Assembly: GCA_945787575.1 (NCBI GenBank)
Contig: CALZKB010000007.1
Coordinates: 1-41,173 of the forward strand
Length of the DNA: 41,173 nucleotides
From: Thermoanaerobaculia bacterium
GTDB lineage: Bacteria > Acidobacteriota > Thermoanaerobaculia > Multivoradales > JAHEKO01
Direction of reading: 5' to 3'
Below are positions 23,744 to 32,968 of this stretch, one piece after another. The position numbers and the translations under genes were made by a program. Below the pieces are notes generated by a model that ran no database searches, was not told the origin of the DNA, and saw only the letters and a program-made list of their open reading frames with translations. Position 1 is the first letter of the stretch. Every line of letters starts with the position of its first letter.

Positions 23744-26700
23744 CTAGAAGGTCATCCCCAGCCCGAAGTAGAACTTGAACTCGGGATCGATCTCCGGGCG
23801 CCGGTCGAGGGCATGCGCGAAGTCCGCGCGTAGAAGGCCGATCGGCGTGAGTGCGCGCAAGCCGATTCCGGCGGAGGTCGAGAGGTCGAAACCGAGCTCG
23901 CCGATCTCCGGCCAGACGTTCCCGGCGTCGGCGAACAGCACGAGGACGTAGTCCTCGAAGAGCCTCCAGCGGAGCTCCTGGTTGACGACCAGGAGAGACG
24001 CGCCGCCGGTCGGCTCGGCGATCGATCCGAATGTCGACTGCTCGCCGAGCGACTCGGTCTCGTAGCCGCGCACCGAGTACTCACCGCCGGCGAAGAACCG
24101 CACCTCCCGAATGAGCTCCTGGCCGAATGCTTCGGCCAGTCCCAACCGGTACGACTGCGCCCAGGATAGCCTCCGGCCGCCGAGCTCCGCGAGCGGCAGG
24201 CTCAGGTTGAGCTGCGAGAACAAACGCGCGTAGCGCAGGTCGCCACCGAGAAAGCTCTCCGACCCCGAAAGATCGACGCTGGCGAACCACCCGCTTTCGG
24301 GCAGCGGCACCGCCGGGCGGCTGTCGAAGACGTACTGCACCCCGAGCTGCGGGTTCTTGACCCTCACTGTGATGAAGGGCAGCGGCCGCTTGGTGTCGGT
24401 GTGCCGCCAGTAGACGCGCAGCGTCCGCCGCGCCCCGAGCGGGTGCGAGTACTGAAGAGTCCCCTCCAGAATCTCGGTGTCGATCTCGATAGTGCCGGAG
24501 AAGAAGTCGAACGCGGTCTCGGTGACCTCTCTGGCGGCGGCGAAGAACTCGAGGGTCCCGGGTCCCCCGAAAGCCCGTGGAATCCTCGTCAGCCAGCGCA
24601 GGCTCCGCTCGTCGTTCGAATAGAGAGCACGCAGGCCGAGCGTCCAGCCGCGTCCGAGGAAGTGGTTGTCCGTCGCGTCGAACACGGCTCCCGAGCCGGC
24701 CTCCGAATCCCACCGCACGCCGTAGGTCAGCCGGAATCGGTCTCGCTCGGCGAGGTCGAAAACGACCCGCTCGAGACCGGGCTCGAGGGCGAGCCTCCCG
24801 GTCGTGACGCCGCTGAAGAGGCCGGTTCGCCACAGCCGGGTGCGGGCCGCGGCCAGGTCGTCACGCGCCAGGACCCGGCCCGGCTCGAGATCGGCGACCC
24901 CCCTCGCCCACTTTGGACGGGTGGAGCGCAGACCGGTGAACTCGATCTCCGCGAGCTGCGACACCGTTCCAGGATCGACGACGAAGCGCACCGCCCTGGC
25001 GTCGGGGCGATCGCCCCCGGCCGGCTCTAGGATCGTCTGCACCCGGGCCTGGAGATGGCCTCGGGCGCCCAGCTCGCGCTCGATGGCGACCGCCGAGCGC
25101 GACAGCTCGCGGCGGCGCAGCGGGTCGCCGGGGGCGACGGTGAGCAAGGATTCCAGCTCCTCGGTGGCGACGGGCGGCTCGCCGGTACTCTCGATGGCGA
25201 CGGCGGCGATCTCCTGACGCGGTCCGGGCTCGATCTCGACCGTGAGCACCCGTTCACCGAGCGACTGAGAGCGGCTCGCGATACGAGCCTGCGGGTAGCC
25301 GAGGTCCGAGAGCGCCGCGAGCAGACGGCGGTCCGCCGACGGCATGCCGACGGCGAGCTCCACGCGCTGCACGGTGTTGAAGAAGTAGGCTCTGAGTGCC
25401 TCGGCTTCAGCCGCCGGGATCCCCGTGAAGACCGGGGGCCCGGCCGAGCTCCGGACACCGCCGTCGATCTCGACGACGACCCGCCGGTCGCCGCCCGGTG
25501 AGTCGGGGTCGAGGGGCTCCACCGCGACGCCGACCGTCGGCTCGAGGAAGCCCTGGCTGCGCAGGGCGCGGACCGCCTCCGCCTTCATCTCCTCGATCGA
25601 CTCCGCCTCGAAGAAGTCGGGACGGTAGAGGCTCGTGATCAACGGCCGAAGCGGCTTGGGGATCTTCTCCCCGGCGAAGGCGAACTCGGTTCGCGGGCCC
25701 GGTTCTATGGCGATCTCGAGCCGCACCTTCTGCCCCAGGCGGCCCGCGCTCGTCGGCCGCACCGACACCCTGGCGTCGGGATAGCCCTTGCCCAGCAGAT
25801 AGTCGGCGAGCTCGACCTCGGCGAGAAAGCGATCGGCGGAATCGAACGGGTCTCCCTTGTCGAGCCCCAGCGCGCGCTTGATCCCGCGTTTCGACACTCC
25901 GGCGGGAAGAGTCTCGACGGCCAGCTTGGAGATCCGCGGCAGGCTTCCCTCCTCGCCCTTCTTCGTGCCGCCGAACTCCTGGCGCAGCAGCAGCGCACCG
26001 CCGTAGGCCGACTCGTCGTCGGTGAAGGCCTGGGCGACCAGGCGCGGCAGCCTGCGCAGCTCGTGCATCTCCAGCAGGTAGGTCTGCCCTTCCGCTTCCT
26101 GCAGATCGATCGAGGCGGCGATCGCGAGATTGGGCGACAGGTCCCGGCTCACCGTCAGCCGCGCCCCGGGATCGGTCTCTCCGAAGATCAGCAGCGGTCT
26201 CAAGGAGAGCGTGAAGCCCACCGATTCGCCGATACGCCCGGCGAACTGCTCTCCCAAGTAGCGCGCCAGATCGGCGGTGACGTCAGCAGCCTCCGGCGTC
26301 TGGGTGGGGTCCCCGCGCGAGCTGGCCCGAAACGGATCGTCGCCGGCAAGCCGGCCGATGGTGGGGTCCTCGAGCGAGGTGGTGGCCTCGAGCTCCAGCC
26401 GGGGATCGGCACCTTCTTCACCGGGATACTCGATCGCCGCCTTGTCCAGCCGCACCGTCTGCCCGTAGAGATGGAGGAGCCCCCCGGGATCGGCCTCGAG
26501 CCGACCCTCGATGACCGGCCGAGCGAGGGTGCCCGTCACCGCGAGCGGCTCCCAGCGAACGAGCAGATCGGCGAGATTGTTTTTGATTCGAACCCCTTCC
26601 CGGGCGCGCACTTCGACATCGAGAGCGATGCGGTCGCCCACGTCCTCCTCGGTGGTCGTCAGGTCGATAGGTGCCAGCAGCTGGCTCACGAGGTCGACGT

Positions 26701-29700
26701 CGAGTTGCAGGCTGCGGGTCAGCGAACCGCGATCGACGTCCAGCCGTCCGCCCAGCGTCGAGCTGCCGTCAGCGGCGAGGCGAAACTGCAGGTCGCCGCC
26801 GAGCGTGGCCAGGAGTCCGTAGTCGAGACGAAAGAGAGCCTCGGAGAAGCGGATGCGAAGGTCGCTCTCGCCGGCGTCCCACACGATTCCGGAGAGCTCG
26901 AGCGGGCCTTCGTTGAGGATCAGGCTGCCCTCTTCCAGGTCGAAGCGTCCGTCGACGAGAGAGAACCGCAGGCTCGGCCGCTCGAGCCGAGCCAGATAGG
27001 GGCGGCGAAAGAGCAGGGACGCCTCGGGTCCCTCGATGCGAAGATGGCCGCCGAGGCTCGCCGGGCTGCCGGCCGCCTCGAAGTCCAGACCCAAAGGTCC
27101 CTCGGCCCGGCCGCCGGCGAGAAAGGGATTGAGCAGGCCGGCGTCGATCTCGCCGCGACCCGAGACGTCGAGCTCGGTGATCAGCTCGCCCGGGGGGTCG
27201 CCGGGGGCCCAGGCGCGTTCGAGGAGAGCCCGCGCCTCGATGTCGAAAGTCTCCTCCCCCGAGCGCAGGACGAACGGTGCGAGGCGAGCCTCGCCGTCGC
27301 CGACGGTGATCTCGAGCGACGGCTCGAAACGCGTCTCACGGCCGCGCATGACAACTCGCGCCGAGTCCACGGAGACCGTCGCGTCCGCCAGCGCCGGCCG
27401 CTCGGGTGAGAGCGCGACGGCTCCCCGGGTGGCGAGCTCGAGGATCTCGGGATCCTCGGCGCCGAGGCGCGCGAGCAGCGGCGCCCAGTCGTTGACCGGG
27501 AGGTCCCACTCGAAGTGCGCCAGGCCCCCCGGCCGGGCGTCGATCGGGGCCGCGAGTCGGATCGATCCTCGGCCGGACGGGGTCTCGAAGGCGCCGCCTT
27601 CGATCTCGAGAAGACCGTCGCGCAGCGCGAATGGGAGGGTCGCCCGTTCGAGCACCGGCAGGCCGGAGACGACCTCAACGATCCCGGCGGTCGAGACGAG
27701 CGGCGCCTCGACCCGGCTCTCGCCGCGGCTGGAGACGGTCGCGCTGCCCACTTGCAGCCGAGCCTCCTCCCAGGTCAAGAGGCCCTCTGCGAGCGACAGC
27801 CGGAGTGCCGGTTCGGCCATCGTGATCGCCGGAAACTCGGTCGAAGCGACGGACAGACCGGGCGCGGAGATCTCGGCGCTGCCCGCGAGGTTCTCGAGCG
27901 GGCCCTGGATCTCGGCGTGAACGGACACGACGCCCGGCGCGACGATCTCGAGGGGCAGCGATTGGAGCCAGGCCGAGTCGACCCTGGCGTCGACGACCGC
28001 GCTCGTGCCGGTGGCCAGAGCGGCGAGGCGATCCGCCGGTCTCCACGCCGCCGACAGCTCGACTTCGGCCGCCGCCTCGAGCTCGAAGCCGTCGCCGGCC
28101 AGCGACCAGGGCGCGATCCGCAGACGGCCTCCCTCGAAGACCAGCTCGAGGTCGGTGGTCGCCTGCGCCCGGCGTCCGTCGAGCTCGAAATCGAGCCTGC
28201 TGACGACGGCCTTGCCCCCGGAGCACGAAGGGCAGACGGTGTCGAGCGTGAGCTGGCCGGCGGTGCCGGCTTCGAGGCGCCCGATCCGCTCGATCAGAGC
28301 GGCGGGGACGAGCGCGCTCCAGTCGCCCGCGGAAGCGGTCCATTCGACGGTGACGGGGCCGGCGCTGCGCGCCAGCGGCAGCCGAGCGAGACCCGCGAGC
28401 TGCGGCAGCTTCTCGAGCGCCGCGAGCGGAGCCTTCGCTTCGAGCGTCACCGGCTCGCGTCCGGAAAGCGCCGCCGTCAGCCGAGCGGTCAGAGCGCCGC
28501 CGGCCAGGCCGAACGATGCCTCGACGCCGGGGAGCCGGTCGTCGCCGGTGCCCAGCGTGAGCTCACCGGAGGCGCGCCGGAGGGGGAGGATCGGCTCGAT
28601 CGTTCCGGTTCCGGCGAGGCGTCGTCCGGGCTCCGCCCGCCCGTCGAGACGCCAGGCGACCAGGCGCCGCGAGCCGGAGATCTCGGCGCTCAGTGAATTG
28701 AACACGGTCCCGTCGGCCGTGGACAGGTCGCGTGCCGTGACGGTGAGCTCACCGGTGATGGTGCCGAGTGGGTCGCGGACCCGGCCCGACCAGTCGAGTC
28801 GCCCCGTCGCCGCCGGCGTGAAGCTCCCGAGCTCGACGTCGGCCCCGGAGGTTTCGACCACGAGCGGCAGCGAGAGCGGGCGGCCGGTGGCGGTGAGGCG
28901 CAGCTGGCCGCCGCCGGGCGGTCGCAGCTCGGCCTGCAGGTCGATCTCCGGGTCGGTCGGCCCGCCCCGGAACCATCCTCCGGCGCTCAGCCGCCCGAGA
29001 GGCGGCAGTTCCGAGATCGAGCCGGGTGCGAGCAGCCGCGGATAGAGACGCGCGATCTCCGAGAGGAGCGCCTCCAACTCCGGCGCTTCGACGGAGGCCC
29101 GGCCGTCGTCGATCGTCCACGCCTCGAGGGTGCGCGAGGCGGGAGTGCTCAACCGAGCTTCCAGCCGGCGGGTGCCGGGCTCGCCCGGGAGAATCGACGC
29201 GTGCCCCACGATCGCGGCCGGCAGCTCGCCGGCGAGCTCCAGCCGGGGTCGCGCCTCGACCTCGAGGATCGGCTGTTCGTCGACGAACCCGACGAGCCGC
29301 ACGATTCCAGCCACCGCCCGTTCCGCTTCGAGTCTCAGATCGGCGGTCAGCTCGAAGGCGGTCCTGTCGAGCTCGAGCCTCTCCTCGGCTGGCAGCAGTC
29401 CGGCGAGGAGCGCCGCGGGCTGGCGCGCTCCGGCGAGCGTCGCGCTTCCGCGCCAGGAGCCCAGATCGACATCGCCCCGGGCGACCAGCGAGCCCGTCTG
29501 ACGTCCGAGCAGCCAGGAACCGGGGTCGAGGCGAACCTCGAAGACGGCTCGCGATTCCTCGAGGCCGGGGTCGAAGTGTCCGGAGAGCTCGGCCGCCAGG
29601 TCGTCGCCCGTCAACCGCAGGCTCTCGACGTCGACCGCGCCGCCCAGATCCATACCCGCTCGCAGCTCGACCTCGAGCGGCACCGGCTCGCGATCGGTCG

Positions 29701-30304
29701 AAGCCAGCACCACCGCCGCTGCGAGCTCGCGTACATCGAGTCGTCGCCCGTCGAACGCCGCGTCGATCCCGAGCTCCGTCACGGAGCTCTCGGCGCCGAC
29801 TCCCAAGTTCTCGCTCCCCGGCAGGCGACCGAGACCGACCATCTCGCCGTCTCGGATCGCCAAACGCTCGATCTCGAGCGGCAGCTCTTCTCGCGGCGGT
29901 TCGTCGTCGTCCGTCGCCCGTGGCGGCGGCAGAGGCGCGGCGAGATCTACCCGCGGCCGCTCGAGCGACAAGAGCTCGAGGTCGACGCGGGCTTGCAGGA
30001 TCGAGGTCGGGCGCCAGCGAGCTTGCAGGCGCTCGGCACCGGCGAACGGGCGCTCTCCCGGTACTCGCAGCCTCGGCCTGTCGACCTCCAGGACACCGGC
30101 GAGCGGCCTGAGCCGAAAGCCATCGGCCTCCGTCGAGAAGCCGGCGGCGGCCTCGGTCCAGCGGGAGACACGGGCGAGAACCGACTGCTGGATGCGCGGC
30201 ACTCGAAGCGCCAGGACGGCCAGCGCCACGAGCAGCACGCCGACGGCGACCACGAGGAGGGCCGCTGCCAGCAATCGGCGAATGCCCGATCTACTTCGTC
30301 TCAT
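23744..30304 (-). CDS. TamB-TamA (TamB/BamA) single-polypeptide fusion
   Basis: A 2186-residue protein from one uninterrupted frame. An N-terminal anchor (about 10-32) sits in the inner membrane. A very long beta-rich AsmA/TamB-like body follows (about 35-1080), then the TamB C-terminal (DUF490) region (about 1080-1440, with VIEGRLEADPGGLLHLYGQ). From about 1453 POTRA-like repeats begin (LPRISKLAVETLPAG; roughly five units to about 1850). An Omp85 beta-barrel (about 1850-2186) carries the conserved VRGY of loop 6 near residue 2078 and ends in an aromatic residue (GMTF), the outer-membrane insertion signal. In E. coli these parts are two proteins, TamA and TamB, that move proteins or phospholipids to the outer membrane. 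Here one chain would span the whole envelope. The gene is divergent from the secreted protein at 30449. Confidence 0.88.
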   Translation of the reverse strand: MRRSRSGIRRLLAAALLVVAVGVLLVALAVLALRVPRIQQSVLARVSRWTEAAAGFSTEADGFRLRPLAGVLEVDRPRLRVPGERPFAGAERLQARWRPTSILQARVDLELLSLERPRVDLAAPLPPPRATDDDEPPREELPLEIERLAIRDGEMVGLGRLPGSENLGVGAESSVTELGIDAAFDGRRLDVRELAAAVVLASTDREPVPLEVELRAGMDLGGAVDVESLRLTGDDLAAELSGHFDPGLEESRAVFEVRLDPGSWLLGRQTGSLVARGDVDLGSWRGSATLAGARQPAALLAGLLPAEERLELDRTAFELTADLRLEAERAVAGIVRLVGFVDEQPILEVEARPRLELAGELPAAIVGHASILPGEPGTRRLEARLSTPASRTLEAWTIDDGRASVEAPELEALLSEIARLYPRLLAPGSISELPPLGRLSAGGWFRGGPTDPEIDLQAELRPPGGGQLRLTATGRPLSLPLVVETSGADVELGSFTPAATGRLDWSGRVRDPLGTITGELTVTARDLSTADGTVFNSLSAEISGSRRLVAWRLDGRAEPGRRLAGTGTIEPILPLRRASGELTLGTGDDRLPGVEASFGLAGGALTARLTAALSGREPVTLEAKAPLAALEKLPQLAGLARLPLARSAGPVTVEWTASAGDWSALVPAALIERIGRLEAGTAGQLTLDTVCPSCSGGKAVVSRLDFELDGRRAQATTDLELVFEGGRLRIAPWSLAGDGFELEAAAEVELSAAWRPADRLAALATGTSAVVDARVDSAWLQSLPLEIVAPGVVSVHAEIQGPLENLAGSAEISAPGLSVASTEFPAITMAEPALRLSLAEGLLTWEEARLQVGSATVSSRGESRVEAPLVSTAGIVEVVSGLPVLERATLPFALRDGLLEIEGGAFETPSGRGSIRLAAPIDARPGGLAHFEWDLPVNDWAPLLARLGAEDPEILELATRGAVALSPERPALADATVSVDSARVVMRGRETRFEPSLEITVGDGEARLAPFVLRSGEETFDIEARALLERAWAPGDPPGELITELDVSGRGEIDAGLLNPFLAGGRAEGPLGLDFEAAGSPASLGGHLRIEGPEASLLFRRPYLARLERPSLRFSLVDGRFDLEEGSLILNEGPLELSGIVWDAGESDLRIRFSEALFRLDYGLLATLGGDLQFRLAADGSSTLGGRLDVDRGSLTRSLQLDVDLVSQLLAPIDLTTTEEDVGDRIALDVEVRAREGVRIKNNLADLLVRWEPLAVTGTLARPVIEGRLEADPGGLLHLYGQTVRLDKAAIEYPGEEGADPRLELEATTSLEDPTIGRLAGDDPFRASSRGDPTQTPEAADVTADLARYLGEQFAGRIGESVGFTLSLRPLLIFGETDPGARLTVSRDLSPNLAIAASIDLQEAEGQTYLLEMHELRRLPRLVAQAFTDDESAYGGALLLRQEFGGTKKGEEGSLPRISKLAVETLPAGVSKRGIKRALGLDKGDPFDSADRFLAEVELADYLLGKGYPDARVSVRPTSAGRLGQKVRLEIAIEPGPRTEFAFAGEKIPKPLRPLITSLYRPDFFEAESIEEMKAEAVRALRSQGFLEPTVGVAVEPLDPDSPGGDRRVVVEIDGGVRSSAGPPVFTGIPAAEAEALRAYFFNTVQRVELAVGMPSADRRLLAALSDLGYPQARIASRSQSLGERVLTVEIEPGPRQEIAAVAIESTGEPPVATEELESLLTVAPGDPLRRRELSRSAVAIERELGARGHLQARVQTILEPAGGDRPDARAVRFVVDPGTVSQLAEIEFTGLRSTRPKWARGVADLEPGRVLARDDLAAARTRLWRTGLFSGVTTGRLALEPGLERVVFDLAERDRFRLTYGVRWDSEAGSGAVFDATDNHFLGRGWTLGLRALYSNDERSLRWLTRIPRAFGGPGTLEFFAAAREVTETAFDFFSGTIEIDTEILEGTLQYSHPLGARRTLRVYWRHTDTKRPLPFITVRVKNPQLGVQYVFDSRPAVPLPESGWFASVDLSGSESFLGGDLRYARLFSQLNLSLPLAELGGRRLSWAQSYRLGLAEAFGQELIREVRFFAGGEYSVRGYETESLGEQSTFGSIAEPTGGASLLVVNQELRWRLFEDYVLVLFADAGNVWPEIGELGFDLSTSAGIGLRALTPIGLLRADFAHALDRRPEIDPEFKFYFGLGMTF

Positions 30305-32273: not shown

Positions 32274-32414
32274 GGCATCAGTTTACGCCTACCACCCCTT
32301 TGGAGGGCGCGCCCGACCGTTCTTCCGGTCTAGGCTCTCGTCACGACGGGACGCCGTGGTGCTGCTTGCTCGGCTACCCCGATCACGAACCGCGAGCAAC
32401 CGGGAGAATCAAGA

Positions 32415-32567
32415 GTGGATTTTTTGATCTTCATCCTCTTCTTCGGAGGCTGGATTCTCCTGCAGCACGTCGTCCTGCCGCGGCTCGGCGTCCCCACCTG
32501 AGCGAATCCCAACCCGGCAGGCTGCCGGGTCGATTCGCCGGAAGCTGACGCCGATCCTAACGAATAG
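32415..32567 (+). CDS. Candidate small membrane selenoprotein (in-frame UGA at codon 29)
   Basis: GTG 32415 is preceded by GGGAG at 8-nt spacing. The frame encodes one hydrophobic helix (residues about 3-21, DFLIFILFFGGWILLQHVVL) and then LPRLGVPT. At codon 29 it meets TGA (32499-32501). The frame stays open for 21 more codons to TAG 32565-32567 and contains Cys37 in AGCRVDSP, giving a U-x7-C pair. Immediately after the TGA lies a 15-bp hairpin with a bacterial SECIS layout. If UGA is decoded as selenocysteine, the product is 50 residues: a membrane helix with a short redox tail. If not, it is a 28-residue peptide ending in PT. The ribosome site, the hairpin spacing and the downstream Cys all favour decoding. 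The SelA/B/C/D machinery is not in this window. The neighbours (a SRPBCC gene and a decayed quinone oxidoreductase) give no direct clue to its role. Confidence 0.68.
32502..32538 (+). promoter_or_regulatory. Bacterial SECIS-like hairpin after UGA
   Basis: The lower stem pairs GCGAATC (32502-32508) with GATTCGC (32532-32538). The upper stem pairs ACCCGGCA (32512-32519) with TGCCGGGT (32523-32530). A small internal loop separates the stems, and a 3-nt apical loop GGC lies at 32520-32522. The GG is 19-20 nt after the UGA. In E. coli fdhF the GGU loop recognised by SelB lies at the same distance, also flanked by GCA...TGC. No T-run follows, so the hairpin is not a standard terminator. Confidence 0.68.
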
Positions 32568-32574
32568 GGCAGGT

Positions 32575-32850
32575 TCTTCTCGTCGACGCAGCGCCGATCG
32601 TGGTCGGCGCCGATCGAGCGGACCATCTCGAAGTCTCGCGTGCTGCACACGCCGGTGACCTCGGCGCCGAACGCCTTGGCGATCTACACGGCGAACGTCC
32701 CCACAGCGCCGGACGCTCCGTTGACCAGGATCTTCCGACCTGCCTGGATCCCGCCCTCGTCACGCGGGAACTGCAGAGCCGTCTACGCCGCGATGGGGAG
32801 GCCGCCGCCCGCTCGAAGACTCGAGAACCGGTTGGGCTGCACGAAATGTC
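32575..32850 (-). pseudogene. Decayed quinone oxidoreductase / zinc-type alcohol dehydrogenase
   Basis: On the minus strand one frame reads GLPIAA, a stop (TAG at 32783-32785), then TALQFPRDEGGIQAGRKILV, NGASGAVGTFAV, a second stop (TAG at 32684-32686), and IAKAFGAEVTGVCSTRDFEM. This is the NAD(P)-binding core of medium-chain quinone oxidoreductases, including the nucleotide-binding GASGAVG. The second stop replaces the Gln normally found before IAKA, so a CAG-to-TAG change is likely. Similarity fades on both sides, so only the middle of the gene remains. It is not functional. Confidence 0.72.
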
Positions 32851-32920
32851 GCGGGATCGGCGGGTTCGGTTCCGCCTGCGACTCCGCCGTTCTTCTGAGC
32901 AGCTCATCGACTGAGGCTAC

Positions 32921-32948
32921 GTGGGTTCGAATCCCGTTGGGGACACCA
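32921..32948 (+). other. tRNA 3'-end fragment (T-arm, acceptor strand, CCA)
   Basis: The sequence can be read as T-stem GTGGG, T-loop TTCGAAT, T-stem CCCGT, acceptor strand TGGGGAC, discriminator A and CCA. The acceptor strand resembles tRNA-Glu, whose 5' end is GTCCCC-like. No matching 5' half, D-arm or anticodon arm was found upstream, and the T-stem has two wobble pairs. Such fragments are left where an integrating element has used a tRNA gene as its attachment site. No integrase is present in the window, so this is a scar candidate only. Confidence 0.5.
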
Positions 32949-32968
32949 ATGCGCACAGTTGTGCGCAT
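32949..32968. repeat. Perfect 9-bp inverted repeat next to the tRNA fragment
   Basis: ATGCGCACA and TGTGCGCAT flank a 2-nt centre (GT) and start at the base after the tRNA-type CCA. This could be an operator, a recombinase core or a chance palindrome. Its exact contact with the tRNA end makes a recombination role worth considering. Confidence 0.5.

Follow-up and report, generated by a model that had tools for sequence, protein, structure and literature searches.

A candidate family of small membrane selenoproteins in Acidobacteriota, encoded through an in-frame UGA codon

The gene at positions 32415-32567 of the window (the whole 41,173-nt stretch of DNA analyzed, which forms contig C7 of a genome of 5.6 Mb and 484 contigs) is, on comparative sequence evidence, very probably a real selenoprotein gene, in which UGA would be decoded as selenocysteine (Sec) within a small membrane protein of 50 residues. 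Of the 396 acidobacterial genomes sampled, 91, or about one in four, contain a member of this family. The standard code yields 28 residues for the open reading frame at 32415, as had been pointed out in an earlier note on this DNA, and annotation of a major soil phylum would therefore miss the gene. The family would constitute a very small membrane selenoprotein that is retained nearly always in its Sec form, and the genes adjacent to its relatives provide a concrete and testable tie between selenium use and reactive sulfur.

The predicted gene and its relatives

The features assigned to the gene are as follows.

32402-32406, + strand: Shine-Dalgarno-like GGGAG, with the start codon 8 nt further on (sequence)
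32415-32567, + strand: predicted selenoprotein gene of 50 residues, GTG start, UGA read as Sec, TAG stop (sequence; 93 homologous loci)
32418-32483, + strand: predicted single membrane helix, residues 2-23 (AlphaFold model; hydropathy up to 2.3 over 19 residues)
32499-32501, + strand: in-frame UGA, putative selenocysteine 29 (UGA in 92 of 93 members, Cys codon in 1; Sec machinery in the genome)
32502-32538, + strand: predicted SECIS hairpin, stems 32502-32508/32532-32538 and 32512-32519/32523-32530, apical loop GGC at 32520-32522 (fold z = -4.7; family covariation)
32523-32525, + strand: Cys codon at U+8, within the SECIS stem (sequence; Cys after Sec in 81 of 93 members, mostly at U+5)

Read in order, the gene consists of the hydrophobic helix, the sequence LPRLGVPT, the UGA (32499-32501), 21 open codons and the TAG (32565-32567). 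These elements, together with the GGGAG 8 nt 5' of the GTG, lie where the earlier note had placed them. A divergent gene of 202 residues flanks the locus on one side and a Ser/Thr kinase gene on the other.

Relatives were sought in 396 genomes, all from the single phylum Acidobacteriota. The 50-residue read-through product, used as query, returned 76 matches, almost all of them containing a single internal UGA, and a profile search listed 102 genomes, about 90 of them strongly. Two loci of the first set, both spurious, were the only ones that did not pass a motif filter; the tblastn matches in genomes G227 and G347 were dropped as spurious, with no motif, no SelB over the cut-off and no tRNA-Sec. 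Members are 42 to 74 residues long, contain a single membrane helix and lack any known domain. They share the conserved core W/Y-x2-L-Q-x3-L-P-R/K-x-G-x2-T-U, in which P, G and T are invariant in part by construction, since the filter required these residues. The closest relative found (L017; 64% identity) is encoded in an acidobacterial metagenome-assembled genome that also has SelB; it came from a single-protein search of genome contigs, which reaches close relatives only.

The codon at the Sec site was read in 93 members and is UGA in 92 of them. The exception, L088 in genome G187, carries TGT (Cys), and its genome contains no SelB or SelA over the cut-off and no tRNA-Sec. Cys forms of the family were sought in plasmids and viral contigs and none was found. 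Outside the count of 93 stand two degenerate relatives: L179 (G172) reads LPRLGLG-UGA-GPSNC, with the Thr before UGA missing, and L180 (G294) reads LPRPGVPRW, with no UGA at the site. These are possible pseudogenes or assembly errors.

The first Cys after Sec is located at U+5 in 62 members, at U+6 in 4 and elsewhere in 15, and 12 members have none; the closest relative found also has no Cys after Sec. The Cys eight residues past the UGA to which the earlier note drew attention is indeed present in the window copy, but U+8 is an unusual position among members, and its role as a conserved redox partner was rejected as stated.

An AlphaFold model of the 50-residue protein contains a helix at residues 2-23 followed by an irregular tail with no regular structure (mean pLDDT 77.5), which fits the earlier description of the product as membrane-tethered. 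Averaged over the family, the N-terminal flank of the helix contains 0.15 K+R and 0.9 D+E, and the C-terminal flank 3.7 K+R and 1.5 D+E; by the positive-inside rule this bias would put the Sec residue in the cytoplasm. Helix prediction and charge bias combined make it probable that the product spans the membrane once, with its N terminus outside and Sec at the cytoplasmic face some six residues past the helix.

The family gave chance-level matches only against the NCBIfam release 20.0 and Pfam-A models. A 2026 tabulation of 119 bacterial selenoprotein families and subfamilies (PMC13188914) has no entry recognizably corresponding to it when compared by names, domains and motifs, and no description of such a small membrane selenoprotein was found in the literature. 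With the SelB/SECIS-dependent selenoproteins (PMC13188914) the family shares the downstream hairpin, a G in the apical loop, spacing of 16-37 nt and Sec machinery in the genome; it differs in its size of 42-74 residues, its one helix and its lack of a known domain or NCBIfam match. The decoding mechanism is already known; the protein family, set apart from the 119 by their descriptions, appears to be new.

Decoding of the UGA codon

Within the 12 codons after the UGA, none of 92 members has an in-frame stop, compared with 7 and 30 of the 92 in the other two frames. Downstream of the UGA, pN/pS comes to 0.55 for the reading frame and to 0.97 and 1.49 for the other two frames, and most changes fall at third positions; these values derive from 39 related pairs that share sequences and hence are not independent. 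Rather than ending at LGVPT, the outcome that the earlier note had named as counting against its proposal, the homologues continue in frame with coding-type evolution. Sequence evolution of this kind indicates that translation would continue beyond the UGA.

The earlier note had also called for a search for selA, selB, selD and tRNA-Sec, holding that a lack of selB and tRNA-Sec would tell against it. The genome of the window was found to contain tRNA-Sec (TCA anticodon), SelB, SelA and SelD, and the organism is therefore expected to decode UGA as Sec. Its SelD (G000:C27:10276-11208, L201) is itself UGA-containing (SCAG-UGA-ASKL). Across the sample, UGA members occur in 86 of 254 SelB-positive genomes (SelB over the cut-off) and in 5 of 142 SelB-negative genomes (Fisher p = 6e-14, phylogeny ignored). 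For the five SelB-negative genomes, tRNA-Sec was found in G055, G118 and G127, and SelA in G055, G118 and G242. Genome G373, which is 97% complete and carries UGA member L100, has no SelA or SelB over the cut-off and no tRNA-Sec was found in it; an incomplete assembly or a relic may be the reason.

The hairpin of the window begins at the base directly after the UGA and comprises 7 + 8 = 15 base pairs; GCA/TGC closes its apical loop, GGC, at +19 to +21. The computed folding energy is -24.7 kcal/mol (z = -4.7 versus dinucleotide shuffles; 0 of 200 shuffles were as good). The 15-bp stem-loop, the apical GG 19-20 nt downstream and the GCA-loop-TGC top described in the earlier note were all located, and the folding run agrees with them. 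For the 60 sequences that have Cys at U+5, the loop spans +24 to +26 and most often reads GTC, GGA or GTT; three pairs, +17:+33, +18:+32 and +19:+31, persist despite two-sided changes, found in 19 to 22 sequences for each pair. The class to which the window copy belongs (30 distinct sequences) gave a best register with the loop at +19 to +21; here covariation is present and the register variable. The bacterial SECIS consensus places a G in loop position 1 or 2, often then G or U, at 16-37 nt from the UGA (PMC13188914), and by sequence the predicted family hairpin fits it. The possibility that the hairpin is an intrinsic terminator was rejected, there being no terminator-like site and no T-run 3' of it.

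The combination of UGA and hairpin in the window is more than chance because the UGA, the hairpin and an open frame recur in homologues. Two other readings of the codon were weighed against these data. Were the UGA a true stop, the product would be a 28-residue membrane peptide and the hairpin a terminator or other RNA element, in keeping with the 28-residue frame given by the standard code and with conservation that is strongest before the UGA. This is nevertheless very improbable: the codons beyond it stay open and change in the manner of coding sequence, the hairpin has no T-run behind it and occurrence of the gene tracks SelB. Moreover, the internal codon is UGA in all 92 non-Cys members, whereas the terminal stops of the family genes are mixed (TGA 51, TAG 24, TAA 16). 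An open frame by itself could equally reflect reading of UGA as some other residue, through suppression or a changed genetic code. That reading is scarcely credible given that the covarying SECIS hairpin with its G-led loop, the SelB link and the Cys replacement all indicate Sec, and UGA is also the final stop in 51 family genes. Comparative evidence makes it almost certain that SelB carrying Sec-tRNA would recognize the hairpin just past the UGA and so direct Sec to residue 29. The identification of codon 29 as selenocysteine in the earlier note is supported by the Sec machinery of the genome, the UGA or Cys codon of homologues and the coding-type evolution past the UGA.

Gene neighborhoods and proposed function

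Recurrent neighbors of the family genes were grouped into clusters, and Pfam served to name these; for the RND, membrane-fusion and TolC labels, the assignment comes from Pfam for some members and from tblastn to cluster members for the others. Within 5.5 kb of the 93 members, the commonest neighbors were RND (30), membrane-fusion protein (27), DUF302 (26) and ArsR (22), followed by a metallo-beta-lactamase/rhodanese fusion (16), TolC-like (15), P-II-like (9), universal stress (9) and TauE (7) proteins. None of these types was found in 20 control stretches of the same contigs, a control biased in favor of this outcome, as the queries were drawn from family loci. The gene directly upstream (68 loci scanned) encodes a YgaP-like transmembrane protein in 12 cases, rhodanese in 9, ArsR in 7, DUF302 in 6 and TauE in 4. 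Directly downstream (44 loci scanned) lie thioredoxin (7), DUF302 (6) and FmdB-type zinc ribbon (5) genes. Persulfide-dioxygenase-like genes are also found among the neighbors of relatives. The usual order in the class of the window copy is membrane-fusion protein, RND, P-II-like, ArsR, selenoprotein, DUF302; another lineage has the order ArsR, fusion protein, TauE, selenoprotein, DUF302. The only Cys member (L088; TCMSGAC) lies ∼400 nt downstream of a gene whose 553-residue product is related to the lactamase/rhodanese cluster, and the sulfur link therefore extends to the Cys form. ArsR proteins beside the family (for example L094:5070-5495, L098:5046-5486 and L107:5142-5495) have in common a CxxxC motif within their last helix (ICRAIC, ICRTVC and the like), which might serve to sense thiols or persulfides.

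Two known sulfur systems resemble these loci. The BigR arrangement for sulfide stress joins an ArsR regulator to a sulfurtransferase/dioxygenase (PMC5823870), and several relatives likewise adjoin ArsR, the metallo-beta-lactamase/rhodanese fusion and TauE. ArsR is near 22 of the 93 members and the fusion near 16; the window copy is near neither. To our knowledge, the described BigR operon includes no small selenoprotein. YgaP is a membrane sulfurtransferase (PMC4730233). The YgaP-like transmembrane domain (PF11127) is similarly that of a small membrane protein tied to sulfur transfer, and is encoded directly upstream in the 12 of 68 loci noted above; by contrast, the present family has no PF11127 match, one helix, Sec and no rhodanese domain, making PF11127 a neighbor and not a member.

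In the window itself (41,173 nt), no match to RND, ArsR, DUF302, rhodanese or TauE was obtained, and no DUF302 was found in its genome. The sulfur neighborhood is absent from both the window copy and the closest relative found, and the window copy may have moved or been left behind. Its frame is intact and its hairpin strong, which suggests a gene that still functions.

The description of the product as a redox peptide in the earlier note is plausible from sequence, and the neighborhoods of relatives point more narrowly to sulfane-sulfur chemistry; this function is based on the loci of relatives and not on the window itself. From these neighborhoods, there is about an even chance that the selenol, with a nearby Cys in most members, would accept or reduce sulfane sulfur (persulfides) at the membrane. 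Its partners would be rhodanese or YgaP-like sulfurtransferases and thioredoxin. The product might be resolved by the downstream Cys or by thioredoxin, and the 12 of 93 members without such a Cys would need an outside thiol. The fuller proposal, of an almost exclusively Sec family whose membrane-anchored selenol carries or reduces sulfane sulfur between rhodanese/YgaP-like proteins, thioredoxin and an export system, is put forward tentatively. If true, selenium would be used in sulfide and persulfide stress, a use for which no description was found.

The same thioredoxin genes (next downstream in 7 of 44 loci) and the ability of the Cys in most members to resolve a Se-S bond would suit a selenoprotein with a general membrane redox task directed at peroxides, disulfides or quinones. 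Such a role is rather unlikely: rhodanese, YgaP-like, TauE, persulfide-dioxygenase-like and ArsR neighbors recur across families, and the Pfam tallies shown list no peroxidase or quinone enzyme as a recurrent neighbor. Metal resistance, too, involves RND pumps and ArsR regulators, and the frequency of RND, membrane-fusion and ArsR genes near the family could indicate an accessory of an RND efflux system that binds or presents a soft metal or metalloid ion. This alternative is improbable, as a separate lineage has the gene next to those for the fusion protein, TauE and DUF302 but has no RND pump there, and there is no metal-binding motif apart from Sec and one Cys.

Other features of the window

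On visual inspection, the region 32560-32907 (- strand) resembled a broken zinc-type dehydrogenase/quinone reductase; one open stretch of it compared with Pfam gave no match. At 32905-32950 (+ strand), ggttcgaatcccgttggggacacca resembles a tRNA 3' end (T arm plus CCA); ARAGORN reported no tRNA in the window, and this element could be a tRNA fragment or an attachment-site remnant. An open reading frame of 2186 residues at 23744-30304 (- strand) unites a TamB-like region with POTRA and an Omp85 barrel in a single protein, an apparent TamB-TamA-type fusion.
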